Below are positions 2,079 through 27,789 of a stretch of 27,962 bases of DNA, piece by piece. Numbering within the stretch: position 1 is the stretch's first letter; each line of letters opens with the position of its first letter. The notes under the pieces were generated by a model. That model did not search any database and had not been told where the DNA came from. It saw only the letters and a list, made by a program, of their open reading frames with translations. Source of the DNA: a virus; the IMG/VR virus record IMGVR_UViG_3300010157_000203, positions 1 through 27,962 of that record; one strand, 5' to 3'. The position numbers and the translations under genes are program-made.

Positions 2079-2086
2079 TATTTATA
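2079..2086 (+). promoter_or_regulatory. TATTTATA motif, candidate late promoter
   Basis: Exact TATTTATA in the 40-base gap after the gp55-like sigma gene, 14 bases before the ATG at 2101. It is the first of a series that marks most gaps in the window. If it acts as a -10 type element like the T4 late promoter, transcription would start a few bases before the ATG and give a very short leader. It is the reverse complement of the T4 late consensus TATAAATA, so its direction of action is uncertain. Confidence 0.5.
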
Positions 2087-2100
2087 ACGAAATATATATT

Positions 2101-2466
2101 ATGGATTTTAATTCAATAACACTATTCGGTAAAAAAACATTTGCTGATTTATTAAAAGAAATACATACCAATTCTTCAAATAAGGAGAAAGAAATTAAAA
2201 ACTTGATAGAAAACTTAAAACCGTTCATCACCTCAGCAGGTGATGCGGTTATTATTGTTCCTCTAATTAAAGATTATTTAGATGTATCAGTTAAAAATGA
2301 TGATTTATTAATTAAAATGGCAGGTATAGTTCAAAGAGCCATGAATACCAAAAGTGGAGAAGATGAAGGATTTTTATCTGATGGAGATAAAGAACAACTA
2401 TTTATGTCTATCCAACAATTAAATGAACAAGTAATAGAATTACCTGCAAAAAAACAGAATGAGTAA
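2101..2466 (+). CDS. Hypothetical phage protein at head of baseplate block (121 aa)
   Basis: First gene after the candidate late promoter. The 121 residues are mostly alpha-helical and charged: LFGKKTFADLLKEIH, then a helix with KEIKNLIENLKPFI, a hydrophobic stretch DAVIIVPLIKDYL, and a polar C-terminus. There is no signal peptide; the hydrophobic stretch is too short and interrupted for a clear membrane span. Its stop overlaps the next start by eight bases (ATGAGTAA), so translation of the hub protein is probably coupled to it. The family is not recognised by name. Its place at the start of a hub/spike/wedge block suggests a baseplate component or assembly factor, which is inference from position only. 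It may be present in small amounts as a chaperone rather than as a structural part. Confidence 0.65.
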   Translation: MDFNSITLFGKKTFADLLKEIHTNSSNKEKEIKNLIENLKPFITSAGDAVIIVPLIKDYLDVSVKNDDLLIKMAGIVQRAMNTKSGEDEGFLSDGDKEQLFMSIQQLNEQVIELPAKKQNE

Positions 2467-3310
2467 TTTATATCCTAGTTTACAGCAAAGTATATCTAAT
2501 ATATCATCAGGAAAGGGAAATGGATCTAAAAGTCTATTTTTCTTTGCTCGTGTTAATGATATTGTTTTATCTTCTAATATTAACACTAAAGATTTTTTTA
2601 CAACAGCTGGGGGCTGGGCAGGGTTAGGTTCAGTTAAATTTACTCCTTTAAATTCAAAACCAGATACCGATAATCCATCTAATTTAATAGCTAAACCTTT
2701 ATTTAATAATATTTCTAAATATCCTCTTTTAAACGAAATCGTTTTAATATTAAGTGCTCCTTCTTATGATTTGAATGAGAAACCTAATGCTAAAACTTTT
2801 TATTATTTAACAACAGTTGGATTATGGAATAGTGTTCATCATAACGCTTTTCCGGATATATCAACGTATAAAGGCGGTGAATTAAAATTTGGTCACACGT
2901 TTACCGAAAAAGAAGATATACGCAGTTTATTACCTGAAGAAGGAGATGTATTGTTAGAAGGAAGATGGGGTAATTCAATTAGATTTTCTTCTACTACTAA
3001 GCAAAAACAACCTAATAATCCTTGGAGTTCAACAGGTGAAGTAGGAATGCCTATTACTATTATAAGAAATAATCAATCAATAGTTGATGTAAATCCTGAT
3101 CCATGGGTTCCTGTTTATGAGGATCCAAATAATGATGGTTCATCAATTTATATGTGTGCAGGGCAAGATATCCCTTTAGAATATGCTTCTAAAAATTTAC
3201 AATCATTTGGAGTAACAATAGGAGCAGCATTTAACAGCTCATTACAAATCCTAGACCCATCTTTCCCTAATTTAGATCAATCACCTAAACAAGCAGATAA
3301 TTTAAAATAA
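2459..3310 (+). CDS. Baseplate hub protein with OB-fold-like domain (gp5-like N-terminal part)
   Basis: Predicted structural protein of the central baseplate hub. Residues about 150-245 carry the pattern LLPEEGDVLLEGRWGNSIRF followed by a GMPITIIRN strand, WVPVYEDPNNDGSSIYM and GQDIPL. This resembles the OB-fold 'valve' domain of gp5/gpV/VgrG-type spike proteins, where E-G-D-V-x-L-E-G-R-x-G is the hallmark. No lysozyme domain is visible, unlike T4 gp5, so if it is the gp5 equivalent the muramidase has been lost or is encoded elsewhere. The next gene encodes a short beta-helix, so the T4 gp5 arrangement (OB fold plus C-terminal needle) may here be split into two proteins. N-terminal residues 1-60 are serine-rich and contain FFARVNDIVL. 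It overlaps its upstream neighbour by eight bases. Confidence 0.6.
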   Translation: MSNLYPSLQQSISNISSGKGNGSKSLFFFARVNDIVLSSNINTKDFFTTAGGWAGLGSVKFTPLNSKPDTDNPSNLIAKPLFNNISKYPLLNEIVLILSAPSYDLNEKPNAKTFYYLTTVGLWNSVHHNAFPDISTYKGGELKFGHTFTEKEDIRSLLPEEGDVLLEGRWGNSIRFSSTTKQKQPNNPWSSTGEVGMPITIIRNNQSIVDVNPDPWVPVYEDPNNDGSSIYMCAGQDIPLEYASKNLQSFGVTIGAAFNSSLQILDPSFPNLDQSPKQADNLK

Positions 3311-3311
3311 T

Positions 3312-3746
3312 ATGGCTTCATCATACAAACCATCATTCCCTTATACAGGAGACCATTTAATTTTTAATTCTGATAGAGTTACTATTAATTCTAAAAAAGA
3401 TTCTATATTATTATTTGCTAAAGAATCTATTAGTTTTTCAGCTGCTGGTTCAATTCATTTTAATAGTGATGACAACTTAATAATAAATTCCCCTAAAATT
3501 TATCTAGGGTTAGAAACCGATATAGATAAACCAGAACCTGCTATTAGAGGACAACATTTATATGATTTATTAAACTATCTAACTACGGCTTTAATGGATT
3601 TAGGAGAAGGTTTATCTTATGCTACTGATAGCAATGGTATAGGGATACCATCAGTTTCAGTATCTGGAGAAAGTTTAATGGCTGATTCATTACAGCTAAC
3701 AAATCTATTAGAAAAAATTAAATCTGAAAGAACCTTTTTATTATAA
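3312..3746 (+). CDS. Beta-helical central spike (needle) protein
   Basis: Residues 14-65 consist of short alternating strands with repeated polar turns: HLIFNSDRVTINSKKDSILL, then FAKESISFSAAGSIHF, then NLIINSPKIYLG. This strand-turn periodicity is what the triple-stranded beta-helix of gp5-C, VgrG and gpV tips shows. The C-terminal 70 residues are helical (HLYDLLNYLTTALMDLGEGL, LTNLLEKIKSER) and probably form a trimeric cap. At 144 residues it is a minimal spike. The start follows one base after the OB-fold protein's stop, and the stop overlaps the next ATG (TAATG), supporting stoichiometric coupling with the hub. I see no metal-binding H-x-H tip, so an extra PAAR-like tip would have to come from another protein. 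The spike role is inferred from periodicity and neighbours. Confidence 0.6.
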   Translation: MASSYKPSFPYTGDHLIFNSDRVTINSKKDSILLFAKESISFSAAGSIHFNSDDNLIINSPKIYLGLETDIDKPEPAIRGQHLYDLLNYLTTALMDLGEGLSYATDSNGIGIPSVSVSGESLMADSLQLTNLLEKIKSERTFLL

Positions 3747-5230
3747 TGGCAGTACCAGCAGGATTATCTAGAATATTATGTGATGTGGCCCCTAAGAGAA
3801 TTAGTAAGGTATCAAATCAAATTATAAAAATCTTAACACAAATAAATGATGTGTTAATGGAAATTAATTCCATTGATTTTTGTAACCCTTTAGGATATAT
3901 TTTAACTAAAGCTTTACCTCCTGGGGGACTTTTAGAAGGTAAACTTTTAAAATATGGAAAAGCTGCAACTGATTTTATTAATAAAACCGGGGATAAATTA
4001 AATCCTGCAAGATTAGATAGTGAAAAATATAAAGCTGGGGATACTACAGAACAAAAAACATCTAAAGATGCTGCATATAAAGCTAGAATTCAATCATATC
4101 AAGCATCTATTGAAGAAATAAGATTATCCTTAGAAGATATCATCCCACCAGATGATTTAATTGATATTATTCCTGGTGGTGCGGGTTTAGCTAAAACTAT
4201 TCAATCTATAAATTTAGCATTAGTTGCTACTAGTGATACTATAGATCCAACAACAGATACAATTAACAAAATCACTATTTTAAAATCTTTTATTAGAAAA
4301 TTATCTCCATTCTTATCTCCAATTAATATTGCTACTTTGGCTATAGGGGGGCAAGAAGAAGCTATAAATAAAAAATTAGCAGGTATTATTAAACCTGAAA
4401 GATTTAGGGAAAGTGTTGGGTTTTTGGTTAGACAAGTAAAATCAGTTGATCAAGCTATAGTCCAAATAGAAGCTACAATTAAATTAATTAATACTATTAT
4501 AAGAATTATTAATACTTTAACTAAAGTATATAAATTTGTAATTAAAATTTTAAAATTTAATCCCACTCCTACAGCTATAGGAGGCCCAACTCCAGTTGTA
4601 TCTGTACCTATAGGAGTAATGAATACTCAATCTGATAGAATATCTAAAAGTAATCAGATGGTTGATGATTTAGAAAAAATAACCGTTATAATTTCTAAAT
4701 TTTTACAGGGTACCATTTTACTAAACATAAAACGTATAAGAAAACAAATATTACAGTTATTAACAGGACTTAATATATTATATCAAAATTTACAAGCATG
4801 CCCTAATACTAATGAGGACAAAGGATTACTAGCCTCTGTTCAAAATAGTATAGATTCCCTAAATAACAATTTAGCAACTTTAAATAATTTATTCCCTACT
4901 GCTAATACTCAAAACCTACCTTTATTACATAAGGGTTATACAATTGATATTATAAAGGAAGAAGTAGTAGATTCGGGTATAAAATTATTAAGAAGAACTG
5001 TAATAGTAGCTGATCAAAGAGGAGTTATTGAATACGAAGGTACTCCCACATATGCTACAGATGATCAAGTTTTAATTAAAGAAGGTCAATATTATATTAA
5101 TAAACAAGGTCAAACTAATACTAGTAATGAGGGTAACGATTCTCCAACAGATCAAGAAATAATAGACATCACAACTCAAACAGGTTTAGATCCTAATGAT
5201 ACCTTAGTAGGACCTGTAACACCAAATTAA
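3746..5230 (+). CDS. Large helical baseplate/tail structural protein (494 aa)
   Basis: Unrecognised by name but clearly part of the baseplate block. Most of the protein is helical with many isoleucines and leucines (for example residues 20-45 and 235-272, with IKLINTIIRIINTLTKVYKF) and long charged coiled-coil stretches around residues 100-135 and 295-345. Around residues 395-450 a distinct beta-rich module appears (KLLRRTVIVADQRGVIEYEG, then ATDDQVLIKEGQYYI). The last 45 residues are acidic, polar and probably disordered. It is too short for a typical tape measure. A hub, tube-initiator or hub-chaperone role (T4 gp27, gp29, gp48 or gp54 functions) is possible from position between the spike and gp25, but no family motif decides. 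The start overlaps the spike gene's stop, and a 30-base gap with a TATTTATA motif follows. Confidence 0.55.
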   Translation: MAVPAGLSRILCDVAPKRISKVSNQIIKILTQINDVLMEINSIDFCNPLGYILTKALPPGGLLEGKLLKYGKAATDFINKTGDKLNPARLDSEKYKAGDTTEQKTSKDAAYKARIQSYQASIEEIRLSLEDIIPPDDLIDIIPGGAGLAKTIQSINLALVATSDTIDPTTDTINKITILKSFIRKLSPFLSPINIATLAIGGQEEAINKKLAGIIKPERFRESVGFLVRQVKSVDQAIVQIEATIKLINTIIRIINTLTKVYKFVIKILKFNPTPTAIGGPTPVVSVPIGVMNTQSDRISKSNQMVDDLEKITVIISKFLQGTILLNIKRIRKQILQLLTGLNILYQNLQACPNTNEDKGLLASVQNSIDSLNNNLATLNNLFPTANTQNLPLLHKGYTIDIIKEEVVDSGIKLLRRTVIVADQRGVIEYEGTPTYATDDQVLIKEGQYYINKQGQTNTSNEGNDSPTDQEIIDITTQTGLDPNDTLVGPVTPN

Positions 5231-5249
5231 AATAAGTTTTAATATTAAA

Positions 5250-5257
5250 TATTTATA
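5250..5257 (+). promoter_or_regulatory. TATTTATA motif three bases before an ATG
   Basis: Exact TATTTATA ending only three bases (TCC) before the ATG at 5261. If transcription began about six bases after the motif, as at T4 late promoters, the RNA would start inside the start codon. Either spacing differs here, the transcript is leaderless, or the motif works at the RNA or translation level. No alternative downstream methionine is available until residue 22 of the gene. Confidence 0.45.
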
Positions 5258-5260
5258 TCC

Positions 5261-5749
5261 ATGAAATTAGACGCATTTAGAAAAGTAATTAGAGAAGAAG
5301 TTAAAAAGGCAATCCAAGAAGAAATGAGAGACATTTTACTTGAGGCAGTTAAGGCTGCTAGTAAACCTACTTTAACCGAAAATAAAACCACTCAACCTTA
5401 TACTAAAGTAGAATCTACTTACAAACCACAATTTTCAGAAATATTATCTGAGATGCCAAAGCCTATCCCTTCTACAGGTAACCCTATGTTAGATATATTA
5501 AATGAAACTGCCCAAGCAGGTGAATGGAGAACTTTAAATGGGGGAGAATATAATGCTTCCCAAGCAGTAGGTTGGGCAGGAGGAGCCCCAGGTATGGTAG
5601 GTGGAGGTTTAAATACTCCAGTAGTAGCTACAGTAGATGAAATGATTAGATCTCAAGGTCCAGTACGTGATATAAACGATGTACATATTGATGTAGTACC
5701 TGATTTTTCAAAGTTTATGAATACATTAAAAGAAAAAGGTAGTTTATAA
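5261..5749 (+). CDS. Phage protein with charged N-terminal helix (162 aa)
   Basis: Residues 1-32 form a strongly amphipathic helix (MKLDAFRKVIREEVKKAIQE, then MRDILLEAV) of the same type that starts several proteins at the right end of the window. It contains I-R-E and L-L-E, both fitting the L/I-x-E cleavage preference known for the T4 prohead protease gp21. The rest is low in secondary structure: a threonine/proline-rich linker, then a glycine/alanine-rich stretch around residues 95-120 (GWAGGAPGMVGGG) and a C-terminal DVVPDFSKFMNTLKEK. No enzyme motif is visible. The stop overlaps the gp25 start in TAATG, so it is expressed together with the wedge proteins. Function unknown; possibly a minor virion or assembly protein. 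The start is fixed by the N-terminal motif. Confidence 0.6.
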   Translation: MKLDAFRKVIREEVKKAIQEEMRDILLEAVKAASKPTLTENKTTQPYTKVESTYKPQFSEILSEMPKPIPSTGNPMLDILNETAQAGEWRTLNGGEYNASQAVGWAGGAPGMVGGGLNTPVVATVDEMIRSQGPVRDINDVHIDVVPDFSKFMNTLKEKGSL

Positions 5750-6162
5750 TGGTATATAACATAGTACATATTAATCCTTTAGACTTACAACCTAGTAAAG
5801 GTGTAGGTATCCAATTACCATTCAATGGTTCAACTGGGTTGAATATTACTTATACTACAGCCGAAGCTACTAAATCTAATATTTTAAATTTCTTTCTAAC
5901 AGGTAAAAGAGAAAGAATAATGAATCCTTCATTTGGGGCAGGTATTAGAGAACAGTTATTCGAACAAATAACTCAAGGTACAACACAAAATATAGAAGAT
6001 ATTATAAAATTTGGATTAAACGATTATTTCCCTCAAGTTAAAGTAAACCAACTTACAGTTAGTTCTTCACCTGATAATAATACCATACAAATCTACTTTA
6101 GTTATACTATATTGAATACTAACATACAAGACGAAATTGCAATAAATTTTAATAATGGCTAA
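5749..6162 (+). CDS. 25: Baseplate wedge protein, gp25/gpW family
   Basis: Small baseplate wedge subunit that sits at the base of the tail sheath and starts sheath polymerisation in contractile tails and type VI secretion systems. Residues 37-75 show the family core: a helix with TTAEATKSNILNFFLTGKRE followed by RIMNPSFGAGIREQLFE. This corresponds to the conserved 'L-x-T-x-x-G-E-R-x-M-N-P-x-F-G-x-G' block of GPW/gp25 proteins. The C-terminal half predicts alternating strands (QVKVNQLTVSSS, TIQIYFSYTIL), as in the family fold. The length of 137 residues is normal (T4 gp25 has 132). It overlaps the preceding gene by one base (TAATG) and the gp6-like gene by eight, preserving the gp25-gp6 order seen across contractile systems. 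High confidence. Confidence 0.85.
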   Translation: MVYNIVHINPLDLQPSKGVGIQLPFNGSTGLNITYTTAEATKSNILNFFLTGKRERIMNPSFGAGIREQLFEQITQGTTQNIEDIIKFGLNDYFPQVKVNQLTVSSSPDNNTIQIYFSYTILNTNIQDEIAINFNNG

Positions 6163-8029
6163 TACTAAAGCGGTACAATACTTAAATAAGGATTTTGATA
6201 GTTTAAAAGCACAGTTAGTTAACTTTGCAAAAACCTACTACCCTAACACATATAATGATTTCACAGATGCCTCACCAGGTATGATGCTTATTGAAATGGC
6301 ATCTTATGTAGGTGATATTCTTTCATTTTATACTGATAACCAAATACAAGAGAACTTCTTACAATTTGCTAAACAAAGGAAAAACTTATTAGCTATAGCT
6401 TATAATTTTGGGTATCGTCCTAAAGTTACTAGTGCTGCCTCTGTGGAAGTTACTGTATTTCAATCTATACCTTCTACTATAGTAAATAGTCAATACATAC
6501 CAGATTTTAGTTATGCTCTAATTTTAGAAGAAGGAACACAATTACAATCTACAATAGGAAACACACCTTTTTATATTAATGATAAAGTAGATTTTTCAAA
6601 TTCAGGTTCATCCCCATTAAATATTTCTGTGTTAAATTATGATATTAATGGTAATCCTTTATTTTATTTACTTCAAAAAACAACGCAAGCTACGGCTGGA
6701 ACTTTAACTACGACTACATTTACATTTAACAATCCTGAGCGTTTCCCTACCGTTACTCTTAATGATACTAACATAATTTCATTGGTTAGTGCAGTTGATT
6801 CTAATAATAATAAATGGTATGAAGTACCTTATTTGGCTCAAGATACTATTTTTGAAGCTACTGAAAATACTGCTACAAATTCTCCATCCCTAGCTCAATA
6901 CAGTAATACTACTCCATATTTACTTAAATTAAAAAAAGTACCTAGAAGATTTGTTTCACGTTTTAAAACAAACAATTCACTAGAACTACAATTTGGCCCT
7001 GGAGTATCATCAGGAGCTGATGAAGAAATCATTCCTAATCCTGATAATATAGGTTTAGGTTTACCTTATGGGGTAGATAAAATGATGACAGCCTGGGATC
7101 CTTCAAACTTTTTATATACACAGACTTACGGTTTAGCCCCTTCAAATACTACTTTAACAGTAACTTATTTAAAAGGTGGAGGAGCTACTTCAAATATACC
7201 TTCTAATACATTAACTAAAAAAATAGGTGGTAATACTACATTTTCTGGAACTAGTTTAGACCCTACTATGAGTACTACAGTACTTAATTCTCTTGCTTTC
7301 ACTAATGATAGTGCAGCAGTAGGGGGTGGAGACGGAGATACAAATGAAGAAATAAGACAAAATTCATTAGCAATGTATCCTACTCAATTAAGAACCATTA
7401 CAACTGATGATTATATTATTAGAACCTTATCTTTACCTTCTAAATTTGGTTTAATTTCTAAAGCATACCCTACCCAAGATACTGGAATAAGTGTTAATTA
7501 CCCAACAGACCTATTAGCTACTCAAAATCCTAATGCTATTTCATTATATATCTTATCTAAGGATACAACTAATAATTTAACTGTTTCTAGTTTAGCTTTA
7601 AAACAAAATCTAAAAACATTCCTTTCCGAATATAGAATGTTAACTGATGGTGTAACTATAAAAGATGCTTTTATTATTAATATAGGAGTAAATTTCGATA
7701 TTATAGTAAGACCCAATTATAATGGAAAACTAATCTTAAACAACTGTTTAACATTACTTCAATCTTATTTCAATATAGATAAATGGCAAATAAACCAACC
7801 TATCATACTATCAGATATTTACAGTGCTTTAGACCAAGTTGAAGGGGTACAAACAGTACAGAAAGTAACTATTATAAATAAAGCAGGAACTAATTCAGGG
7901 TACTCACAATACTCATATGATATTAAGGGAGCTACTATTAATAATATTATTTATCCTTCTTTAGATCCTAGTATTTTTGAAGTAAAAAATTTAACAACTG
8001 ATATTCAAGGTAAAATAGTTACTTTTTAA
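6155..8029 (+). CDS. 6: Baseplate wedge protein, gp6 / baseplate-J-like
   Basis: Core wedge protein that forms the inner ring of the baseplate with gp25 and gp7. The N-terminus has the wording of the gp6/gpJ family: YLNKDFDSLKAQLVNFAKTY, DASPGMMLIEMASYVGDILS, FYTDNQIQENFL and a GYRPK turn by about residue 90. Downstream motifs include LELQFGPGVSSGADEEI (about residues 275-292) and, near residue 400, a NEEIRQNSL segment followed by an LRTITTDDYIIRTL segment, which match the conserved central part of J-like proteins. The C-terminal 150 residues contain the helix-strand domain that contacts gp7/gpI (LSDIYSALDQVEGVQTVQKV). The length, 624 residues, is close to T4 gp6 (660). The start overlaps gp25 by eight bases. 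Followed by a 41-base gap with a TATTTATA motif. Confidence 0.85.
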   Translation: MANTKAVQYLNKDFDSLKAQLVNFAKTYYPNTYNDFTDASPGMMLIEMASYVGDILSFYTDNQIQENFLQFAKQRKNLLAIAYNFGYRPKVTSAASVEVTVFQSIPSTIVNSQYIPDFSYALILEEGTQLQSTIGNTPFYINDKVDFSNSGSSPLNISVLNYDINGNPLFYLLQKTTQATAGTLTTTTFTFNNPERFPTVTLNDTNIISLVSAVDSNNNKWYEVPYLAQDTIFEATENTATNSPSLAQYSNTTPYLLKLKKVPRRFVSRFKTNNSLELQFGPGVSSGADEEIIPNPDNIGLGLPYGVDKMMTAWDPSNFLYTQTYGLAPSNTTLTVTYLKGGGATSNIPSNTLTKKIGGNTTFSGTSLDPTMSTTVLNSLAFTNDSAAVGGGDGDTNEEIRQNSLAMYPTQLRTITTDDYIIRTLSLPSKFGLISKAYPTQDTGISVNYPTDLLATQNPNAISLYILSKDTTNNLTVSSLALKQNLKTFLSEYRMLTDGVTIKDAFIINIGVNFDIIVRPNYNGKLILNNCLTLLQSYFNIDKWQINQPIILSDIYSALDQVEGVQTVQKVTIINKAGTNSGYSQYSYDIKGATINNIIYPSLDPSIFEVKNLTTDIQGKIVTF

Positions 8030-8037
8030 AAAAATTT

Positions 8038-8068
8038 ATCTAATACATATTTATATTATATATTAGAT
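8038..8068. repeat. Inverted repeat framing a TATTTATA motif
   Basis: ATCTAATA at 8038-8045 is the perfect reverse complement of TATTAGAT at 8061-8068. The 15-base spacer between them holds the TATTTATA motif (8048-8055). In RNA this would form an 8-bp, AT-rich hairpin just ahead of the ATG at 8071; in DNA it could be an operator around a promoter. AT-richness makes chance formation possible. Confidence 0.4.
8048..8055 (+). promoter_or_regulatory. TATTTATA motif, candidate late promoter
   Basis: Exact TATTTATA, 15 bases before the ATG of the DNRLRE-like gene at 8071, inside the loop of an 8-bp inverted repeat. The distance would suit a -10 element with a leader of about nine bases. Confidence 0.5.
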
Positions 8069-8070
8069 TT

Positions 8071-15042: not shown

Positions 15043-15050
15043 TATTTATA
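15043..15050 (+). promoter_or_regulatory. TATTTATA motif, candidate late promoter
   Basis: Exact TATTTATA in the 63-base gap after the giant wedge gene, 20 bases before the ATG at 15071. This gap is the longest in the window and the rest of it is A-rich with no convincing terminator hairpin. Confidence 0.5.
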
Positions 15051-15070
15051 ATTGTAATTAACAAAAACTT

Positions 15071-15730: not shown

Positions 15731-15734
15731 TAAT

Positions 15735-16784: not shown

Positions 16785-16802
16785 TTTTTCTTCTTAGTTT
16801 AA

Positions 16803-16810: not shown

Positions 16811-16835
16811 AACGAATACTTAGTAAAATTAAATT

Positions 16836-17690
16836 ATGAATATAAAAAATGTAATATGTCAAATATGTAAGAAAGAAATGTCTTTTGGTAGAATCAAAAG
16901 ACATATTTCTTCTAACCATAAAGAAATCTTATTAGAAGATTATCTAAAATTGTACTGGAATACTTTACCCCTTCATAAACCTTGTGAATATTGTAAAGAA
17001 AATATAGTTTATAAATATAACACTTGTTCTAAGGAATGTAGAAAGAAATTAGAACATGGGCTCAAAGGAGTAAAAAAACCTGAAGGTTTTATGTCTCAAG
17101 AACATATTAATAAGATTAGTAAATCCCACTTAGGTAAAATAGTATCAAAAGAAACTAGGGATAAAATAAGTAATAGTTCTAAAGGGATAAGTAGAAATAA
17201 AGGGAAACAACCTATGCTAGGTAAAAAACAAAGTTTACATCAAAAAGAAACTGCTAGTAAAAGGTTACTAAAATATTATTCTGAAGGTAATGAACCTTGG
17301 ACTAAGAATAATAAACATAGTGTCGAAACTATTGAAAAAATTTTTAAAAAACGTAAAATTAATAATTTAGAACAATTAGTTTGGAACACTTTAGTAGAAA
17401 ATAATATTGATTTTACTTTCCAATTTTATTTAAAAGATGATAAAGATAATTGTAAATCTTATGATTTTAAAATAAAGCATAAACCTATATTATTAGAAAT
17501 TGATGGTGATTATTGGCATGGTAATCCTGAGACTAAAAGTCATTTCAAGTTAGTAGAAGAAACTAAAATTAATGATATTTATAAGGGTCAATTAGCTCAA
17601 GATAAAGGGTTTACTCTATTAAGATTTTGGGAAAAAGATATTAAAGATAATCCAATGATAATCATTGATAAATTGAAAACTATAATATGA
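16836..17690 (+). CDS. Homing endonuclease, EDxHD / Vsr-like with NUMOD3 repeats
   Basis: Selfish free-standing endonuclease. Domains in order: a C2H2-like zinc finger at residues 8-28 (CQICKKEM and HISSNH); a second cysteine cluster at residues 50-68 (CEYC, CSKEC); two short NUMOD3-type DNA-binding repeats at about 87-125 (INKISKSHLGK, RDKISNSSKGISRNKGK); and a C-terminal Vsr-like nuclease domain at about 175-284. Within that, LEIDGDYWHGNP supplies E221, D223, D225 and H228, and LLRFWEKDI supplies E266. This matches the EDxHD family typified by I-Bth0305I, which makes a strand-directed double break. The gene lies between two tail genes that are presumably adjacent in relatives. It overlaps the adhesin gene by four bases (ATGA), so insertion left the downstream gene translationally coupled to it. 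Active-site residues look complete. Confidence 0.8.
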   Translation: MNIKNVICQICKKEMSFGRIKRHISSNHKEILLEDYLKLYWNTLPLHKPCEYCKENIVYKYNTCSKECRKKLEHGLKGVKKPEGFMSQEHINKISKSHLGKIVSKETRDKISNSSKGISRNKGKQPMLGKKQSLHQKETASKRLLKYYSEGNEPWTKNNKHSVETIEKIFKKRKINNLEQLVWNTLVENNIDFTFQFYLKDDKDNCKSYDFKIKHKPILLEIDGDYWHGNPETKSHFKLVEETKINDIYKGQLAQDKGFTLLRFWEKDIKDNPMIIIDKLKTII

Positions 17691-20683
17691 GTTTTTCTTA
17701 CAAAACATTAAATTCGAATGATATAGCACTAACCTCCTATATTGCTAATAAGCAATGGGAGGTTACTGATGCTACCCTATCTCAAAACGGAGTTGCAATT
17801 TATATAGGTGAAAACTTGCCTATTAATAAAACAAATCCCTTTAACCCTAATACTGACTCTCAAACTGAAAATGAAGAATATAGAAGATTAGTATTTGATT
17901 CTATAAAAAATTTGTATTATCAAAACTATGTCTCTGGAACATTATCTGGAGATTTTTACCAATCATCTTCATTCTTTAATTATGAGCAATCCACTCTAAT
18001 ATCAAATACTATTAGAAATCTACCTACAATTTCAGGGAGTATAGATGGATTAAATGAGTATGATATATCCTCTAGTTTATACGACAGTACAACATTATTT
18101 GATTCAGATAAAGGGAGCAAAATAGTAGTAATATCTATAGATCAAAATATATTTGGATCGGGATTATCTCCTAACACAATCAATATTTCAGGTTCAACTT
18201 ACAATCTACAAGACGATGGTGAGGGTAATATAATGGATACTTTAGCTACTTCTTCATTATATGTTGGAAATGTATTCTATTCTCAAGGATTAATAGTAAT
18301 AACTAATCAAGATTATTTATGTGTATTTGGAGCCCCTCCAACTACTACAAACGATAATTTTTCTTATTTAAATGTTAATTATAACCCTCAAACCTTAGAT
18401 ATATTAGCAAATGATTTTGCAGACTGTGGAACAATAGACCCAACCTCAGTCCAATTAATGTCTGTACCTGGTTTTAGTTTCCCAAATTATACTTTAAATA
18501 ATGGTATTATAACAATAACACCCGACCAATCTAGTATAATACCTGGAAACTACCAATTAAATTATACAGCTGGGACTTTTAATGGGGTAAGAAGTAATAC
18601 TAGTTCAATTAATTTAACTATAACATCTCAATCGTTACAGATAACTAACATAATAAGCTCCTCAGTCTGTTATGCTTCTACAGCATCAGTACCTGTAACT
18701 TTTTCTATTAATTATGGGGTACCACCTTACAGTTACTCTTTAAATAATGGAACTACTTATACTGGGATACCTGGATTCTTTAATCAAACTGCTAGTGGGA
18801 GTATAACTGCTTCTTTAACAGACATTATTTATGTTAAAGATTATATGGGAGTTATAGTAACTCAATCTTTCAGCTCTTGGTACCCTCCTGTAACTTATAC
18901 TACTCTTTTAACTAAAAAACCATGTTTTGATACTGACGCCAGTGGTAAATTTACAGTTGATAATACTGGAGGATATACTGGAGTTTCAGCTTCATTTGTT
19001 TTAACCGGCTCAGCAGATTCTTATTATGCTTTACCAAAACAATTTACAGCCTTATCAACTGGTTCTTACACCTTAAAAGTTAAAGATTCTTATGGATGTG
19101 TTACTAGTTCAATAGTAACTTTAGGAATATATCCTGCTTTAACATCTAGTGCAACCCAAGCTAATGTATCTTGTTATGGATCAAGTAATGGCTATATTTC
19201 AGTAGTATTTACTGGTGGTAATGATACATTAATTGTTAATATGACAGATGCTACTGGCAGTTATATATATTCAAATGTTAATTTAAGTAATTTTCCTAAT
19301 AATACTGTTACTGCTTCTAATTTAGTAAGTGGAAGTTATAGTTTAGTATTATTTTCTTTAGGATTAAATCAATGTCAATCTTATAATAATACATTTACAA
19401 TAACCTCCCCAACAACCCCAACAACTGTTGTTACAGCATCTTATATAAATTCATGCTCTAATGCTATAATATTCTCGGGTTCAGGTGGAACTGCTCCTTA
19501 CACCTACTACGCAGTAGAAACAGGTTCTAATGTTACTTATTCATCAACATCAACCCCTTTATCTTTAAATAGTTTAACAGGTGGTACTTTTAATACCTTT
19601 ATAGTAGATAATAATGGATGTGCTTCAACCTCTTCTTTATTAAACGTATTTAGTAGAGCATATCAATATACCGGCTCATTTTGCTCCCAATCTGGAGGTA
19701 ATAATACAGGGTATGTTTCTAGTTCAGGAATACAACAAAATTTTACTACAGGACCTTATTCGGGTTCAATGGTAACTTCTAGTTATTCTATAAACTCTAC
19801 TTTATATGGTCCAACAGTTAATTATAAACAATTATTTGTTTCTGGGACTTTAGATAACATTCAACCTTGTGGAGTAGGTACTACATGGTATAACAGACTA
19901 TATTCTAACCCTACTTTATGCCCACCAGGAGGATGCTTTGCCCCTATTTTAGTAACTGCAACCCCATTAAATTGTACTACAAATTGGACATCATCATATT
20001 CTGCAACTTATAACTCGGGATCAGCTTTAGCTACTAAAACTATAATTGAATATAGTTATAACTCTAGTTTCTCACCTAAAGCTACTCATAGTATAGTTAA
20101 TGCTTCCCCAACCATGCTCCCATTCTATACAGTAACAGATTTTGGAACGTTTAATACACCAGATCAAATAATGTACTTTAGAGCGTATAATAGTTGCAGT
20201 ATAGGAACTACCTCATCTTATAGTAATGTTTTAACTGCAAGTTGTACTACAATACCCCCTATACCTACCTTTACAGTGCAAATAAAAAACCACTCAGGAG
20301 TAACATTAAATTACTCTACAGGTTCAACTACTTACGTTATATATAATAATGCTTCATCTAGTATTTCATTTACTGAACAAACCAAGGATATAAATTTATA
20401 TACAATTAATGGAGTCCATAGTGGTGGTGGAGGTAATACTTACACAGCTAACGTTTCTAGTAGTAACGAAGTGAATGGTAATGTTTATACAGCTCTACAT
20501 TGTCCCGTAGACCCTATTAATTATGTAGATTATACAGTAATATCTGAATATATTGATGGAGGATTTGATTTTACATTTATAGATGATAATAGCAATTCTT
20601 TTACAGACCTACAAGTACATATAGATAGAAACACATATAATAATTCAGGAACTATAACCTTAAATATAACTCCATTCTTATAA
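17687..20683 (+). CDS. Large tail adhesin with SprB-like repeats
   Basis: Probable receptor-binding or fibre protein. Residues 1-210 look like a virion-attachment module (YRRLVFDSIKNLYYQNYVSG, KIVVISIDQNIFGSGLSPNT, LQDDGEGNIMD, GLIVITNQDY). Residues 214-312 resemble a cadherin/Ig-like domain (LDILANDFADCGTIDPTSVQ). From about 320 to 655 come four degenerate SprB-like repeats, each starting near a cysteine and containing a G-G-x-x-x-Y or P-P-Y-x-Y-S-L turn and a G-S/T-Y-x-L-x-V-x-D-x-x-G-C end. Examples are GVPPYSYSLNNG, GSYTLKVKDSYGC, VSCYGSSNGYISV and GTAPYTYYAVETG. SprB repeats are characteristic of Bacteroidetes surface adhesins, including the gliding adhesin SprB. Residues 765-855 look fibronectin type III-like. 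It starts in an ATGA overlap with the homing endonuclease and ends in TAATG with the next gene. The exact receptor is unknown. Confidence 0.7.
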   Translation: MSFSYKTLNSNDIALTSYIANKQWEVTDATLSQNGVAIYIGENLPINKTNPFNPNTDSQTENEEYRRLVFDSIKNLYYQNYVSGTLSGDFYQSSSFFNYEQSTLISNTIRNLPTISGSIDGLNEYDISSSLYDSTTLFDSDKGSKIVVISIDQNIFGSGLSPNTINISGSTYNLQDDGEGNIMDTLATSSLYVGNVFYSQGLIVITNQDYLCVFGAPPTTTNDNFSYLNVNYNPQTLDILANDFADCGTIDPTSVQLMSVPGFSFPNYTLNNGIITITPDQSSIIPGNYQLNYTAGTFNGVRSNTSSINLTITSQSLQITNIISSSVCYASTASVPVTFSINYGVPPYSYSLNNGTTYTGIPGFFNQTASGSITASLTDIIYVKDYMGVIVTQSFSSWYPPVTYTTLLTKKPCFDTDASGKFTVDNTGGYTGVSASFVLTGSADSYYALPKQFTALSTGSYTLKVKDSYGCVTSSIVTLGIYPALTSSATQANVSCYGSSNGYISVVFTGGNDTLIVNMTDATGSYIYSNVNLSNFPNNTVTASNLVSGSYSLVLFSLGLNQCQSYNNTFTITSPTTPTTVVTASYINSCSNAIIFSGSGGTAPYTYYAVETGSNVTYSSTSTPLSLNSLTGGTFNTFIVDNNGCASTSSLLNVFSRAYQYTGSFCSQSGGNNTGYVSSSGIQQNFTTGPYSGSMVTSSYSINSTLYGPTVNYKQLFVSGTLDNIQPCGVGTTWYNRLYSNPTLCPPGGCFAPILVTATPLNCTTNWTSSYSATYNSGSALATKTIIEYSYNSSFSPKATHSIVNASPTMLPFYTVTDFGTFNTPDQIMYFRAYNSCSIGTTSSYSNVLTASCTTIPPIPTFTVQIKNHSGVTLNYSTGSTTYVIYNNASSSISFTEQTKDINLYTINGVHSGGGGNTYTANVSSSNEVNGNVYTALHCPVDPINYVDYTVISEYIDGGFDFTFIDDNSNSFTDLQVHIDRNTYNNSGTITLNITPFL

Positions 20684-20988
20684 TGTCATCAATAACACAA
20701 GATTTAAACGCAACCCTAAGTTTCAAAAACGAATATATCGTTTATGAACAAGAAGTACGTTGTAAAGTAGGAGAAAATGATTTTAACATGACTCTAAACC
20801 CCACAATATCAACCGATAATTCAGGTTCATTAAGAGATTTTGCTACCGGTTCAGACTTTTCTCCATATGTTACTACAGTAGGGCTTTATAATAATAGAAG
20901 TGAATTATTAGCAGTAGCTAAATTAGCTCAACCTATACCTCTTTCCTCAACAACAGATACGGTTTTTGTGGTTAGGTATGATATTTAG
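20683..20988 (+). CDS. Small tail protein sharing a domain with the 349-aa protein
   Basis: The 101 residues correspond to the C-terminal domain of the protein at 15735-16784. Shared wording includes YEQEVRCKVGENDFNMTLNP versus the IFVRVKNSDFNYTTNPSM segment, then YVTTVGLYNNRSELLAVAKL versus YVTTVGMYNNNNELLAVAKL, each ending in P-I/L and a short hydrophobic strand (TVFVVRYDI; LIRIKLDF). It is joined to the adhesin by a one-base TAATG overlap and is the last gene of this unit. A hairpin starts at the third base of its stop codon. It probably binds the same partner as its paralogue and may cap or anchor the adhesin; that is inference from gene order. Confidence 0.6.
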   Translation: MSSITQDLNATLSFKNEYIVYEQEVRCKVGENDFNMTLNPTISTDNSGSLRDFATGSDFSPYVTTVGLYNNRSELLAVAKLAQPIPLSSTTDTVFVVRYDI

Positions 20989-21006
20989 TATTGCATATTG
21001 TAATAC
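20988..21006 (+). terminator. Stem-loop at the end of the tail operon
   Basis: GTATTGCA (20988-20995) pairs with TGTAATAC (20999-21006) through eight base pairs, one of them G-T, around a three-base TAT loop. The stem begins at the last base of the TAG stop codon. No U-tract follows, so it is not a textbook intrinsic terminator. It could be a processing or stability element, or keep the next start codon (21026) under translational control. Confidence 0.4.
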
Positions 21007-21025
21007 GCAATCTAAAAATAAAATT

Positions 21026-21478: not shown

Positions 21479-21486
21479 AAAGTTTG

Positions 21487-21501
21487 GTTCCCACAAGGAA
21501 C
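21487..21501 (+). terminator. Short hairpin with AT-rich tail after the GIY-YIG gene
   Basis: GTTCC (21487-21491) pairs with GGAAC (21497-21501) around loop CACAA, followed by TTTATTATATT. This resembles a weak intrinsic terminator. A competing pairing is possible between TTTGGTT (21483-21489) and AACCAAA (21514-21520), which would exclude the first stem, so an attenuator-like switch cannot be ruled out. Confidence 0.35.
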
Positions 21502-21526
21502 TTTATTATATTAAACCAAAAATAAA

Positions 21527-21679: not shown

Positions 21680-21689
21680 AACCAAGGTT

Positions 21690-22622: not shown

Positions 22623-22625
22623 ATT

Positions 22626-23384: not shown

Positions 23385-23409
23385 TATTTATATTAATCAC
23401 ATATTTATC
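23385..23409 (+). promoter_or_regulatory. TATTTATA motif plus a near-copy in tandem
   Basis: An exact TATTTATA at 23385-23392 starts at the base after the nuclease stop, and TATTTATC follows at 23402-23409, eight bases before the ATG at 23418. The two are spaced 17 bases apart. They mark the start of the right-hand cassette. Confidence 0.45.
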
Positions 23410-23417
23410 CAACTATC

Positions 23418-23876
23418 ATGAGAATAATAAATCCTAAATCAAAAAATAAAAAACCTCAAGTCAAAATAACTAAAGTTGATAAAGATGCTTTTGAATATAG
23501 AGGTGGGCCTTTATTACATGAAGGGTTTACTCCTCAAAAAGCACCATTAATAAAAAAATTTGTTGACTATACTTGTAGTAGATTAAATATAGATGAACCT
23601 AAAATTTTTATTATAAACTCACCTACTTACTCTCAAGAACATAAAAGTTTTGGAGGTTATATTCCATCTGAACAAAAAATACTTTGTGTGGTACATAATA
23701 GAAATATGGCTGATATTTTAAGAACATTAGCTCATGAATTAGTACATCATATGCAAAATATAAATGGGGAAGAATTAAATGGAGAAGATGGTTCAAACAT
23801 TGAAAATGAAGCTAACGCTATGGCTGGAGTAATAATGAGAGAATTTGGAAGAGAAAATCCTGAAATATTTGAATAG
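23418..23876 (+). CDS. Small zinc metalloprotease-like protein (HExxH)
   Basis: A 152-residue predicted zincin. The active-site helix LRTLAHELVHHMQ supplies H106, E107 and H110. About 20 residues later, SNIENEANAMAG gives E128 or E131 as the likely third ligand in an E-x-x-A setting, as in gluzincin-type proteases. Before the site lie DEPKIFIINSPTYSQE and SFGGYIPSEQKILCVVHN, the strand region and edge seen in minimal metallopeptidases. The first 20 residues are basic (NPKSKNKKPQVKITK) and lack a signal peptide, so the enzyme acts in the cytoplasm or is packaged. The substrate is unknown; cleavage of host proteins or of head-associated proteins are both possible. It begins eight bases after a near-copy of the promoter motif, and its stop is one base from the next start. 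Confidence 0.7.
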   Translation: MRIINPKSKNKKPQVKITKVDKDAFEYRGGPLLHEGFTPQKAPLIKKFVDYTCSRLNIDEPKIFIINSPTYSQEHKSFGGYIPSEQKILCVVHNRNMADILRTLAHELVHHMQNINGEELNGEDGSNIENEANAMAGVIMREFGRENPEIFE

Positions 23877-23877
23877 A

Positions 23878-24414
23878 ATGATATCAATGAAAGAGTTGTT
23901 TAAAGAAGAGTTATCTAAAGCTTACACTATATATTGTGATATGGATGGAGTATTATGTGATTTTGAAGCAAGATTTGAACATTTTACAGGCCTACCACCA
24001 GATCAATATAGAGCAGAAATGACTAAAAAATATGGTGAAAAAAAAGTAGATGAAATATTTTGGGATGTAATTGATCATCAAGTAGGAATGAGATTTTGGA
24101 GAGGAATGCCTTGGATGCCTGAGGGTAAAGACTTATGGAGTTATATAAAACAATATAAACCTACTTTACTTACAGCACCTTCATGGCATAATTCTAGCAC
24201 TGAGGGTAAAACAGCTTGGGTTGAAGATCATATACCAGGAACTCCAATAGTATTTAAACAAGCTAAACAAAAAGCAAATTTAGCCGGTCCTAATATAATC
24301 CTTATAGATGATAGAGAAGATACTATTATGAGTTGGAAAGCTAAAAATGGTATAGGAATTTTATATAAAAATACAGACCAAACAATAAACGAATTAAAAT
24401 TATTAGGAATATAA
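23878..24414 (+). CDS. HAD-family 5'(3')-deoxyribonucleotidase-like phosphatase
   Basis: Predicted to remove phosphate from deoxynucleoside monophosphates. All HAD motifs are visible (numbering from ATG 23878): motif I YCDMDGVLCDF with nucleophile D21 and acid D23; motif II LLTAPS; motif III lysine in VFKQAKQKANLAG; and motif IV ILIDDREDTI. The helical cap carries GMPWMPEGKDLW, as in the 5'(3')-deoxyribonucleotidase branch. I prefer the start at 23878 (one base after the protease stop, TAGAATG) or the nearby ATG 23887, rather than 23845, which would overlap the protease by 32 bases. The first residues (MKELFKEELSKA) resemble the N-terminal helices found at the start of other genes to the right. 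Likely role: dNMP turnover during host DNA recycling. Confidence 0.8.
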   Translation: MISMKELFKEELSKAYTIYCDMDGVLCDFEARFEHFTGLPPDQYRAEMTKKYGEKKVDEIFWDVIDHQVGMRFWRGMPWMPEGKDLWSYIKQYKPTLLTAPSWHNSSTEGKTAWVEDHIPGTPIVFKQAKQKANLAGPNIILIDDREDTIMSWKAKNGIGILYKNTDQTINELKLLGI

Positions 24415-24417
24415 GTT

Positions 24418-24990
24418 ATGTCAACACAATTAAATAGAGAATTTTCGGAAAGAGACATTCAAAGAATGAGAAATATCATCAGTAAAAATACAGGTGATAG
24501 CACCCGAATTCAAGTTGGTTATAGTAAAGTTAAAGTAACTTACTCCGAGGGTGATACATGGGAAGAAAACGGTAAAACCTGGACTATTCACAACGGTATT
24601 AAGCAAACCATCACCAAACACGATGCATTAAAGGCAATGGTTGAATTTCCACTTACTTGCTCAGGTTGTTCTAAACCAATGAAAAGTAATAGATTAAATA
24701 GAAAAATGTATAATATACATAATACATGTTTTGATTGTGTTATTGAGATGGAAACAAAACTTAGAATAGAAGGTAAATATGATGCTTATGTTAAAGAAAT
24801 GCTAAATTCTAATAAAAACACTTCTTTAGATGACGCTGAACAAATGTTTGATGAATATTTTAATAGTAAAAAAGAAACATATGTTACCGAGGCAGGTGAC
24901 ATAGAAAAATGGGATGGTGGTAGCATTGATCCTGAATATATAAAAATGGTCAAAGCAAACATAAAACGTCTAAGAGAAACAGAGATATAA
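24418..24990 (+). CDS. Conserved zinc-finger phage protein (190 aa)
   Basis: The N-terminal 65 residues look tightly constrained: REFSERDIQRMRNIISKNTG, then YSEGDTWEENGKTWTIHNGI and KQTITKHDA. A four-cysteine zinc site follows: C81-S-G-C84 and C104-F-D-C107, separated by a short basic segment (KPMKSNRLNRKMYNIHN). The remainder is helical (VIEMETKLRIEGKYDAYVKE) with an acidic C-terminus ending in a basic helix. From memory this is a recurrent protein of uncultured T4-like phages with no assigned function. The zinc ribbon suggests nucleic-acid or protein binding. Codons between about 24480 and 24650 are richer in G and C than in neighbouring genes. It follows the HAD gene after three bases and is followed by a palindromic promoter-like element. 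Confidence 0.65.
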   Translation: MSTQLNREFSERDIQRMRNIISKNTGDSTRIQVGYSKVKVTYSEGDTWEENGKTWTIHNGIKQTITKHDALKAMVEFPLTCSGCSKPMKSNRLNRKMYNIHNTCFDCVIEMETKLRIEGKYDAYVKEMLNSNKNTSLDDAEQMFDEYFNSKKETYVTEAGDIEKWDGGSIDPEYIKMVKANIKRLRETEI

Positions 24991-24999
24991 ATATTTATA
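24986..24999. promoter_or_regulatory. Palindromic TATAAATATTTATA element
   Basis: A 14-base perfect palindrome joins TATAAATA (24986-24993), the T4 late promoter sequence in sense orientation, to TATTTATA (24992-24999), the motif repeated in this phage. It lies 14 bases before the ATG at 25014 and overlaps the stop of the zinc-finger gene. It is the one gap where both orientations of the motif coexist, so it could act as a promoter in either direction. Confidence 0.45.
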
Positions 25000-25013
25000 C
25001 CAAAATCAAACCC

Positions 25014-25571
25014 ATGAAAAAAGAATTTTTAAAAAATATAATCAAAGAAAGCATCACTGATTATTTATCAGAATTAAATTCAAGTGACCATTTAGAAGAA
25101 GAATTAATTGATGAGACTCCAACTACTGAAGAAAAAACTTTATTTGAAGATAAAGTAACTAAAGGAGATGGTTATATTTACTTAGTTAAAAAAGCCTTAA
25201 ATGAATCTACTGAAAAAGATTTAGTTGAGAAAAAATCATTAATGGAATTAATAGGTGAAGGGTTATATGAAGGTGCTTACTTAAATGAAGCACAAGCTAT
25301 GAGTGCTGCTAAAAAAGTAGTTAAAGCTAAAGATACTTTAATGAAAGAAAATGTTAAGAAAGGACATGAAAAAGTAGGTGGTTTAGAAAAACAAGTAGCT
25401 GATTTAAAAGTTGAAATGGCTAAACTAATTGATAATCCTGAAATGAGAGGTGAGTTAACTAACTACACTGCTAAATTAGAAAAAGCTGAACAAGTATTAG
25501 AAAAATTAAAAGTAGCATTAGAAAAATCTTCTCCTAAAAAAGAAAAGAAAGAAAAAAAAGATGACGAATAA
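25014..25571 (+). CDS. Charged helical protein with N-terminal targeting-like helix (185 aa)
   Basis: Starts MKKEFLKNIIKESITDYLSE, an amphipathic helix of the same type as in the genes at 5261 and 26954, with I-K-E and L-S-E sites that fit the T4 gp21 protease preference. A short acidic linker (EEELIDETPTTEEKT) follows, then FEDKVTKGDGYIYLVKKALN and a long coiled coil from about residue 100 to 170 (GGLEKQVADLKVEMAKLI, then AKLEKAEQVLEKLKVALEK). It ends with a lysine-rich tail KKEKKEKKDDE. No catalytic motif is visible. The composition is like that of T4-type scaffold or internal head proteins, but this is inference. The stop overlaps the next gene by 11 bases. A TATTTATA motif lies 14 bases before the ATG. 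Confidence 0.6.
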   Translation: MKKEFLKNIIKESITDYLSELNSSDHLEEELIDETPTTEEKTLFEDKVTKGDGYIYLVKKALNESTEKDLVEKKSLMELIGEGLYEGAYLNEAQAMSAAKKVVKAKDTLMKENVKKGHEKVGGLEKQVADLKVEMAKLIDNPEMRGELTNYTAKLEKAEQVLEKLKVALEKSSPKKEKKEKKDDE

Positions 25572-26844
25572 TAATTATACTGAAATTTTATCTAAACATC
25601 TTTATACCTTTATTAAAGAGGAACTTGAAGGAGATGAAGAAGATCAAACTAAAAAGTATACTGAATATGATGTAGTATTGATTCCTGAAGATATTAATAA
25701 GGCTATTGAAGCTTTATCTAATATTAAAAATTATGGACCATATGCTCAAAATTTAAGAGATCCTAAAACTATTGAAAAAATATTTGGACCTAATACTCCA
25801 GCAACTAAGGGTAGAATAGCTAAAGAAACTTGGAATAAATTTTCAGAAGCTGAAAAACGTGCTAAAGTATTAGATATTAAATCTAGAGCTCCTCAAGATT
25901 TTAAAGATGTTGAAACTCAAATGCAATCTCAATTCCAGACTTGGTCTGAAGAAAATAAAGGAGATTTTATTGATTTCTTAGTATCACTTCCTGGAGATAA
26001 ATTACCTATGAATTTTTATGGTAAGTATGGTGCTAATTTCTTTTTAACTAAAACACCTGAAAATCTTAAAAAATATAGTGGTGTAATGTCTAAAGGTGTT
26101 CACTATACTGCTGATGAAAATGAATTAACATTCCCTCAAAATTGGAATCCATTTAAATCTAAAGATTATCTTAAAAAAGTATTAAAACTTATAATGGATA
26201 ATGCTGGACTTGAATATGTTTTTTCTGAACAAGAATCAACAGAACAACCTAAAGAAAAAGCAACTAGCGTTACCTCACCTGATAGACCTGACCAAATAAA
26301 TTTTGTTAAGACATTTACTGATGATGAAGGTGTACCTGATGAAGATCTAGCTGCTAAATTTAGAAAATTAATACCAGATGAATTCAAATTTAAAACCAAA
26401 GTTGAAAATGGTAAAATTACTGTAAGCGATATATCAGCATCTGATAAAAAAGCTTTAATTAACGCTTCAATTAAATTTCAAGAAAAATATAACAATCTTT
26501 ACGAAAATAAAAATACAATGAAAGACCAATTAAGATCTCAATTAACTTCTATGATTAAGGAAGTTCTTATAGAAAAAAAATTAACTCCTACTCAACTTAA
26601 AAAAAGAAATAAAGAAGCAGAAGTTATTAAAAAGAAAAATCCTAAAATGGATAAAGGTGAAGCTTTTGCAATTGCTACTAAACATATAGAAAAGGGAAAA
26701 GCTATGAAAGAGGATTTAGATTCTGCTTTATCTAAATTAGTTAAAGATGATGATGCTTCTGAATTAGTAGCTCTTATAAAAAATTTACCAAATGCCGCTA
26801 GAGAAAAAGTAGCTCAAATGCTTAAAATAGATTTAAAAAAATAA
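25561..26844 (+). CDS. Two-part head-associated-like protein with internal targeting motif (427 aa)
   Basis: Unrecognised by name. The N-terminus (EILSKHLYTFIKEELEGDEE) again carries an amphipathic helix ending in F-I-K-E, close to the F-I-A-E cleavage signal of T4 internal proteins. Residues about 35-300 form one globular region: DVVLIPEDINKAIEALSNI, GRIAKETWNKFSEAEKRAKV and GKYGANFFLTKTPENLKKYS, with a proline-rich hinge near residue 235. At residue 320 an internal methionine opens a second copy of the N-terminal motif (MKDQLRSQLTSMIKEVLIEK). It is followed by a lysine-rich segment LTPTQLKKRNKEAEVIKKKN and a final helical domain. The last 108 residues therefore look like a separate module fused in frame, possibly released by cleavage or made from an internal start at 26518. 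No enzyme motif. Confidence 0.6.
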   Translation: MTNNNYTEILSKHLYTFIKEELEGDEEDQTKKYTEYDVVLIPEDINKAIEALSNIKNYGPYAQNLRDPKTIEKIFGPNTPATKGRIAKETWNKFSEAEKRAKVLDIKSRAPQDFKDVETQMQSQFQTWSEENKGDFIDFLVSLPGDKLPMNFYGKYGANFFLTKTPENLKKYSGVMSKGVHYTADENELTFPQNWNPFKSKDYLKKVLKLIMDNAGLEYVFSEQESTEQPKEKATSVTSPDRPDQINFVKTFTDDEGVPDEDLAAKFRKLIPDEFKFKTKVENGKITVSDISASDKKALINASIKFQEKYNNLYENKNTMKDQLRSQLTSMIKEVLIEKKLTPTQLKKRNKEAEVIKKKNPKMDKGEAFAIATKHIEKGKAMKEDLDSALSKLVKDDDASELVALIKNLPNAAREKVAQMLKIDLKK

Positions 26845-26951
26845 TGTCAAAGTCAAAAAAAGTAGGTAAACAAAAACCTAACCACGGTAATCAAGTTAAA
26901 AGACAAAACATTATCAAGAAAAACGAACAAATCTTAGCCAAATATAAATAA
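26844..26951 (+). CDS. Tiny basic protein (35 aa)
   Basis: The ATG at 26844 overlaps the previous stop (TAATG). The reading frame runs 35 codons to TAA at 26949-26951, two bases before the next start. The peptide is extremely basic (MSKSKKVGKQKPNHGNQVKR, then QNIIKKNEQILAKYK) with 11 lysines and one arginine and no acidic residue except one glutamate. Such peptides usually bind nucleic acid. In this place it could be a packaged DNA-binding peptide or a leader that couples translation to the next gene. Its last codons contain TATAAATA, the sense-orientation T4 late promoter sequence. The perfect fit between its two neighbours supports a real gene. Confidence 0.6.
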   Translation: MSKSKKVGKQKPNHGNQVKRQNIIKKNEQILAKYK

Positions 26952-26953
26952 AA

Positions 26954-27781
26954 ATGGATAAATCAGATTTAAGAAATATAATTAGAGAAACTATAGAACA
27001 TATTTTTCAAGAAAATACTTCTGTACCTCTTCAAGAAAATATTTTATTGACTGAAGATAAAGTTTCTAAAAATCTTCAATATCATTTAGATAAAGAAATT
27101 CCATTACATGAGAATGCCTTTAGATATGGTACTGAAGCTCAATTATCTTTATTTAAAGAAGTAAGAAAACTTTATAATGAAGAAAAATTATACTTAAATC
27201 CTGAAGATAGATGGTTAATTGAAAATACAGATATTGGAAATTATGGTTTATTTGAAGGTCAATTTGTAGCCTTAGATGTACCAATGGTTGAAGAAGATAT
27301 TAATCCAACTGATACAATCACTATGGATGTTCCTTTATTTATTCGTATGTTAGAATATGCTAGAGAAGACGCTAAAACTGATATGGATTTACATGACGCG
27401 ACAGAAAAAGCGCTTGCTTTAAGTACCTCTGGTAAAACGCTGACTATGGCGGATTATGAGAGTATTGTAGGTAAATCGTTAGATGAAGCTGAATATCATG
27501 GTAAAAATGTAGAATTAAATCACCCACATAGAGGTGGCTCTAAAAAATTCTTTGTTTATGTCAAGGATGGAGATAAAGTAAAAAAAGTACAATTTGGTGC
27601 AGCTGGAGGTGGTCAAAACTTATCAGTTAAAATTAGAGATCCAAAAGCCAGAAAGGCATTTGCTGCTCGTCAAAATTGTGATAGAAAAAAAGATAGAACA
27701 ACTCCTGGATATTGGTCTTGTAATATTGGAAAATATGCCAAATCTTTAGGATTTAAATCAAATTTTAATGGTTATTGGTAA
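26954..27781 (+). CDS. Head-associated-like protein with conserved C-terminal phage domain (275 aa)
   Basis: Begins MDKSDLRNIIRETIEHIFQE, the same N-terminal helix as other genes here, followed by P-L-Q-E, another L-x-E site. The middle (about 55-110) has FRYGTEAQLSLFKEVRKLYN, then EEKLYLNPEDRWLIENTDIG and LFEGQFVALDVPM. The C-terminal ~105 residues form a distinctive block: YHGKNVELNHPHRGGSKKFF, VYVKDGDKVKKVQFGAAGGG, then KIRDPKARKAFAARQNCDRK and PGYWSCNIGKYAKSLG. This block is widely found in T4-like phages of marine and uncultured origin; I recall it as a domain of unknown function (possibly the one named DUF5872, from memory). The two cysteines may bind metal or each other. Proposed role in the head or as scaffold is inference. 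A slightly GC-richer patch lies near 27397-27480. Confidence 0.6.
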   Translation: MDKSDLRNIIRETIEHIFQENTSVPLQENILLTEDKVSKNLQYHLDKEIPLHENAFRYGTEAQLSLFKEVRKLYNEEKLYLNPEDRWLIENTDIGNYGLFEGQFVALDVPMVEEDINPTDTITMDVPLFIRMLEYAREDAKTDMDLHDATEKALALSTSGKTLTMADYESIVGKSLDEAEYHGKNVELNHPHRGGSKKFFVYVKDGDKVKKVQFGAAGGGQNLSVKIRDPKARKAFAARQNCDRKKDRTTPGYWSCNIGKYAKSLGFKSNFNGYW

Positions 27782-27789
27782 TATTTATA
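27782..27789 (+). promoter_or_regulatory. TATTTATA motif four bases before an ATG
   Basis: Exact TATTTATA beginning one base after the preceding TAA stop and ending four bases before the ATG at 27794. As at 5250, the spacing is too short for T4-style promoter geometry with an intact start codon. Confidence 0.4.

Follow-up and report, generated by a model that had tools for sequence, protein, structure and literature searches.

Why does a single AT-only word, TATTTATA, recur between the genes of a phage, and which protein would read it? The window analysed here is an IMG/VR record of 27,962 bases, all long genes of which lie on the + strand. A preliminary description had proposed that the word is a late promoter recognised by a gp55-like sigma factor of the phage. 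The window phage carries virion genes, including T4-like gp6. Its gp6-like baseplate protein is 48% identical to that of Flavobacterium phage immuto and its sigma-like protein, P0001, is 45% identical to the immuto counterpart; both also match phage Mel-JY01, and the gene order of immuto resembles that of the window. Relatives are encoded on hundreds of metagenomic contigs, with at least 600 matches listed in searches with the sigma and baseplate proteins, and cultured members, of which immuto, a phage of Flavobacterium sp. LMO8, is one, are few. The clade infects Flavobacterium-like Bacteroidota and is a large, mostly uncultured group.

Two further observations concern the gene content of these phages. 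The 998-aa protein encoded at 17687-20683 of the window weakly matches the SprB repeat of Bacteroidota surface proteins and is perhaps a tail-fibre adhesin. Positions 1-50000 of immuto encode QueC/D/E, a QueF-like reductase, FolE and a DpdA-like transglycosylase, a set that probably provides for 7-deazaguanine DNA modification.

Position of the box in the window

All seven exact + strand copies of TATTTATA listed in the preliminary description, and both near-copies, were recovered. They are given below with the candidate sigma gene and a host-type promoter; class 1 and class 2 denote host-type sites and late boxes, respectively.

1260..2060, + strand: gene for P0001 (266 aa), a divergent sigma-70-family protein with Sigma70_r2 Pfam family matches; proposed late sigma
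2079..2086, + strand: putative late box TATTTATA of gene 2101; predicted +1, A2090
5250..5257, + strand: putative late box of gene 5261; predicted +1, A5261, which is the A of the ATG (leaderless); 3-5 nt from the ATG in orthologues
8048..8055, + strand: putative late box of gene 8071
15043..15050, + strand: putative late box of gene 15071; predicted +1, G15054
16803..16810, + strand: variant box TATTTATT of gene 16836 (homing-endonuclease-like); TATTTATT makes up about a quarter of class-2 sites
21484..21514, + strand: candidate host-type (class 1) promoter TTG-N20-TATATTAA, preceding a 50-aa ORF and the primase
23385..23392, + strand: putative late box of gene 23418; predicted +1, A23396
23402..23409, + strand: weaker near-copy TATTTATC, also in the gap before 23418; expected +1 not a purine
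24992..24999, + strand: putative late box of gene 25014; overlaps an opposite-strand copy in the palindrome TATAAATATTTATA
27782..27789, + strand: putative late box of gene 27794; predicted +1, 1 nt upstream of the ATG

The near-copy at 23402 is probably not used, since no purine stands at its expected +1. The gene at 16836-17690, HNH/homing-endonuclease-like (phrog_559), has a variant late box of its own.

The concentration of the word in gaps, which had been called striking, is borne out by counting. The window has 11 gaps of 10 nt or more, and 7 of them hold an exact same-strand TATTTATA; shuffled sequence gave a mean of 0.39, and 0 of 20,000 shuffles reached seven. Over the whole window the word is not above chance (17 copies on both strands versus 14.0 expected from dinucleotide shuffles); what supports the claim is where the copies lie and on which strand. 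This ordinary total is the one point in favour of the view that an AT-only word gathered by chance in gaps rich in A and T; that explanation is refuted by the shuffles and by the relatives, given the strong strand asymmetry and the conservation at orthologues of 35-100% protein identity, and its probability is negligible. Three further + strand copies (10502, 17576 and 23123) lie in coding sequence, as do all but one of the seven copies on the - strand, and the exceptional one (24986-24993) straddles a stop codon and the gap at 24991. In the 11 gaps, TATAAATA, the form of the T4 late box, has a single same-strand occurrence, which belongs to the palindrome at 24986-24999.

Two gaps had been reported to lack the word. 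One of them, 21479-21526, is real, being the only true window gap of more than 20 nt with complete flanks and without a late box; it holds the class-1 site, which shares its architecture with the class-1 sites of relatives, TATATTAA replacing TAnnTTTG. The other, 20989-21025, is probably no gap, as an ORF opens at 20966 or 20978. The seemingly longest gap (26845-26953) is occupied by a Lys-rich 35-aa ORF (26844-26951), the stop of which overlaps a TATAAATA word.

Conservation of the box and its predicted start

An oriented and conserved [A]TATTTATA-N3-purine was found in about 150 related contigs and ten long relatives, so that the TATTTATA core originally described holds, but conservation extends a little further, to ATATTTATA. 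The relatives are almost one-directional, with nearly all genes on one strand. In the same-strand gaps of 50 closer contigs ATATTTAT is present in 81 gaps versus 9 for the opposite orientation, and in those of 106 further contigs it is present in 211 gaps versus 14 for the reverse complement and 18 expected. Among ten long records, which include the window itself and complete immuto, same-strand TATTTATA in gaps numbers 6-31 per genome versus shuffle means of 0.6-6.5; sense copies in coding DNA number 3-16, although coding DNA is about 16-60 times larger per genome. Gap enrichment and strand bias extend from the window to the relatives. Motif discovery agrees with this: unseeded expectation-maximisation returned the motif first or second in most genomes, and in most genomes recovered it beside a host-type motif.

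The box is present upstream of 101 of 101 orthologues of gene 2101, the gene after the sigma-like gene, and of 72 of 73 orthologues of gene 5261, 24 of 25 of gene 15071 and 51 of 102 of gene 8071, counts that are phylogenetically linked and come from proteins diverging to about 30% identity. It precedes none of the orthologues of the closely spaced genes that follow the sigma gene. Where a gap contains both the late box and a terminator-like hairpin, the box lies downstream of the hairpin in 37 of 41 cases.

Information in the aligned sites is confined to [A]TATTTATA and to a purine 11 nt downstream of its first T, which is present in about 86-94% of sites. Among sites without a -33 element this position is A in 72% and G in 14-15%, values unchanged when ATG positions are excluded. 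Because the purine is fixed at this distance, we place the start 3 nt beyond the box. Distances from box to ATG range from 3 to 60 nt and have two modes: a broad one at 13-26 nt and a narrow peak, formed by 20 genes of 12 unrelated families, at exactly 3 nt. Such a peak would arise if transcription can begin on the A of the start codon. Some late genes would then sometimes start exactly on the ATG and yield leaderless mRNA, as predicted for window gene 5261 and for the immuto gene at 81525.

These distances also bear on the possibility that the box is an RNA-level signal in the 5' leader, namely a translation-initiation enhancer or an mRNA processing site. Such a role would suit its nearness to start codons, at times only 3 nt, in hosts without Shine-Dalgarno sites, where A-rich sequence ahead of genes is favoured (PMC6847099). 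However, a spread of 3-60 nt with two modes, the complete lack of the box at gap-less genes in tight operons, which need translation too, and the position just after terminators with a fixed purine 3 nt on all argue against a signal in RNA, which we regard as very improbable.

The second motif in the relatives (class 1), TTG-N18-22-TAnnTTT, is of the Bacteroidota host -33/-7 type; the primary promoter of Bacteroidota has -33 TTTG and -7 TAnnTTTG, the -33 box being weak even in the host (PMC6847099). Gaps with class 2 only and gaps with class 1 only are distributed 114:53 in the structural block versus 59:136 elsewhere (odds ratio 5, p=4e-13). The separation is not absolute, given the 59 class-2-only gaps elsewhere and the 53 class-1-only gaps within the block, and in two of the nine genomes the bias falls short of significance. 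Mel-JY01 has the canonical TAnnTTTG as its host-type box, and its second box remains ATATTTAT[AT].

The late box might accordingly be viewed as a degenerate form of the -7 element (TAnnTTTG) of host sigma-A, serving the unmodified host RNA polymerase. The two have a common frame, sharing A-11 and T-8, T-7 and T-6 with the F. johnsoniae -7 box as well as a spacing of 4-5 nt to the start (PMC6847099), and some copies might be read by the host sigma on account of these shared bases; the weakness of the -33 box in the host itself also fits. Nevertheless, TTG at -33 is missing from 222 of 269 class-2 sites, with no upstream column carrying information; in the late box T-12 is at background (about 35%), A-5 replaces G-5, and T-4 and A-3 are added. 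Host-type sites form a class of their own in each long relative, and the two boxes are distinct in Mel-JY01. In 37 kb of Flavobacteriia chromosomal gaps TATTTATA is not enriched (5 same-strand and 8 opposite-strand copies, 8.2 expected), whereas TAnnTTTG is (85:40 versus 18.6 expected). We therefore consider use of the box by the unmodified host polymerase unlikely. Nor is the box enriched in four segments of Bacteroidota phages without a P0001 homologue, segments that contain few gaps.

Mel-JY01 (PP395634.1), a relative of immuto, is recorded as a Microcystis phage, and its early promoters are of the canonical Bacteroidota kind (CTTGCATAC-N17-TTCGTAnATTTG). It may in fact infect a member of the Bacteroidota that lives alongside Microcystis. 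On account of these promoters, its use as an annotated cyanobacterial phage to separate host from phage signal was dropped in that form. Shine-Dalgarno-like sites are found at 30% of its genes versus 2-5% in relatives.

The candidate recogniser and the T4 late promoter

The gene of P0001 sits at the start of the motif-carrying block. As a single sequence P0001 stays below threshold, with no significant match in PHROGs, NCBIfam or Pfam (phrog_234 at E 0.02-0.6), and a PDB profile search gave no match. In its protein family, Sigma70_r2 is the commonest Pfam match (26 of 48 members, best 3.5e-5), and several members match NCBIfam sigma/ECF models down to about 2e-4 (ECF sigma, 1.9e-4). The predicted model is nearly all-helical (pLDDT 76, pTM 0.44), and a Foldseek search of the PDB with it returned sigma factors prominently among the best matches, none of which reached E 0.001. 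On these matches, P0001 is a divergent member of the sigma-70 family with region 2 present.

The earlier name for the recogniser, a gp55-like sigma, is partly supported, by the sigma-70 family and the location at the start of the block, but hhalign against the T4 gp55 profile fell short of significance, with a probability of 3.6% and E 0.012 across 83 columns. Direct identification of P0001 as gp55 was dropped, as neither PHROGs, NCBIfam and Pfam searched with the single sequence nor the profile comparison gave a significant match. The box is probably recognised by the phage's own sigma rather than that of the host, and gene position and co-occurrence link it probably to P0001; LR756508 has a P0001 homologue (37% identical) yet no motif. 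For the clade we found neither promoter nor sigma annotations, the immuto homologue, gp153, being listed as a hypothetical protein, and in the papers searched TATTTATA is not described as a phage late promoter.

The proposed element resembles the late promoter of T4, which depends on gp55-gp33-gp45, in having its short AT-only box roughly one turn of the helix before the start, in the lack of a conserved -35 element, and in serving late virion genes, as judged by position in the structural block. By analogy, the candidate recogniser would likewise be a phage-encoded sigma-70-type protein working with the host core. Unlike T4, where the 8-bp TATAAATA occupies -13 to -6, the word in gene direction is here the reverse complement, ATATTTATA/TATTTATA, and gene direction together with the downstream purine indicates that the box is read as TATTTATA. 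In addition, the predicted start lies 3 nt after the box versus about 5 in T4, some starts would be leaderless, and P0001 is larger than gp55. The late boxes identified in silico near virion genes of KVP40, 44RR, S-PM2 and Aeh1 also differ from the present one, as they are highly similar to TATAAATA or altered at -13/-12 only (PMC2988020).

A strict T4-type late promoter, with TATAAATA on the opposite strand, a gp55 orthologue and clamp activation, would fit a word whose reverse complement is exactly the T4 late box, in a phage with T4-like gp6 and other virion genes, and T4 late promoters also lack a -35 element (PMC2988020). But all window genes lie on the + strand, so TATAAATA promoters there would face the wrong way; moreover, same-strand TATAAATA is rare in gaps, T4 itself has TATAAATA in gene direction (12 versus 6), and the comparison of P0001 with gp55 gave no significant match. 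A strict T4 arrangement is thus highly improbable. When the predicted starts are aligned, using the published position of the T4 late box (PMC2988020), ATAAATA of T4 and ATATTTA of this clade would fall at the same positions with AA changed to TT, and the late element is probably a T4 late-promoter variant adapted to the Bacteroidota polymerase.

Proposed late transcription in the clade

The late-promoter role first suggested for the word is well supported by orientation, conservation, post-terminator position, the downstream purine, the structural-gene bias and the negative controls in host and phage DNA. With a probability of roughly 0.77, ATATTTATA is the core (-10-like) late-promoter element of the clade, read by the phage sigma-70 protein with the host polymerase. 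Host RNA polymerase carrying P0001 would bind ATATTTATA and start at the purine 3 nt downstream, so that most late transcripts would have leaders of roughly 10-23 nt, and a smaller number of genes, window gene 5261 among them, would start at the ATG exactly. Early and other non-virion genes would use the separate host-type -33/-7 promoter. For immuto, early 5' ends would be expected to follow TTG-N20-TATATTTAG and late ends to lie about 4 nt after TATTTAT[AT]. At 66-77 kb of immuto, small ORFs are preceded by about a dozen class-1 promoters (TTCnTATATTTAGGTATCAATAATTAAAACA) that are nearly identical and remain conserved far into the leader.

The broader proposition, to which we give even odds, is that in a widespread group of phages a late sigma redirects the host polymerase from the -33/-7 promoter to a single ATATTTATA box, with some late genes leaderless. 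It would constitute a second example of T4-like phages adapting late transcription to an unusual host polymerase. The early and late promoter pair and the candidate sigma would provide testable transcription maps for hundreds of contigs, and may offer a possible expression tool for Bacteroidota.
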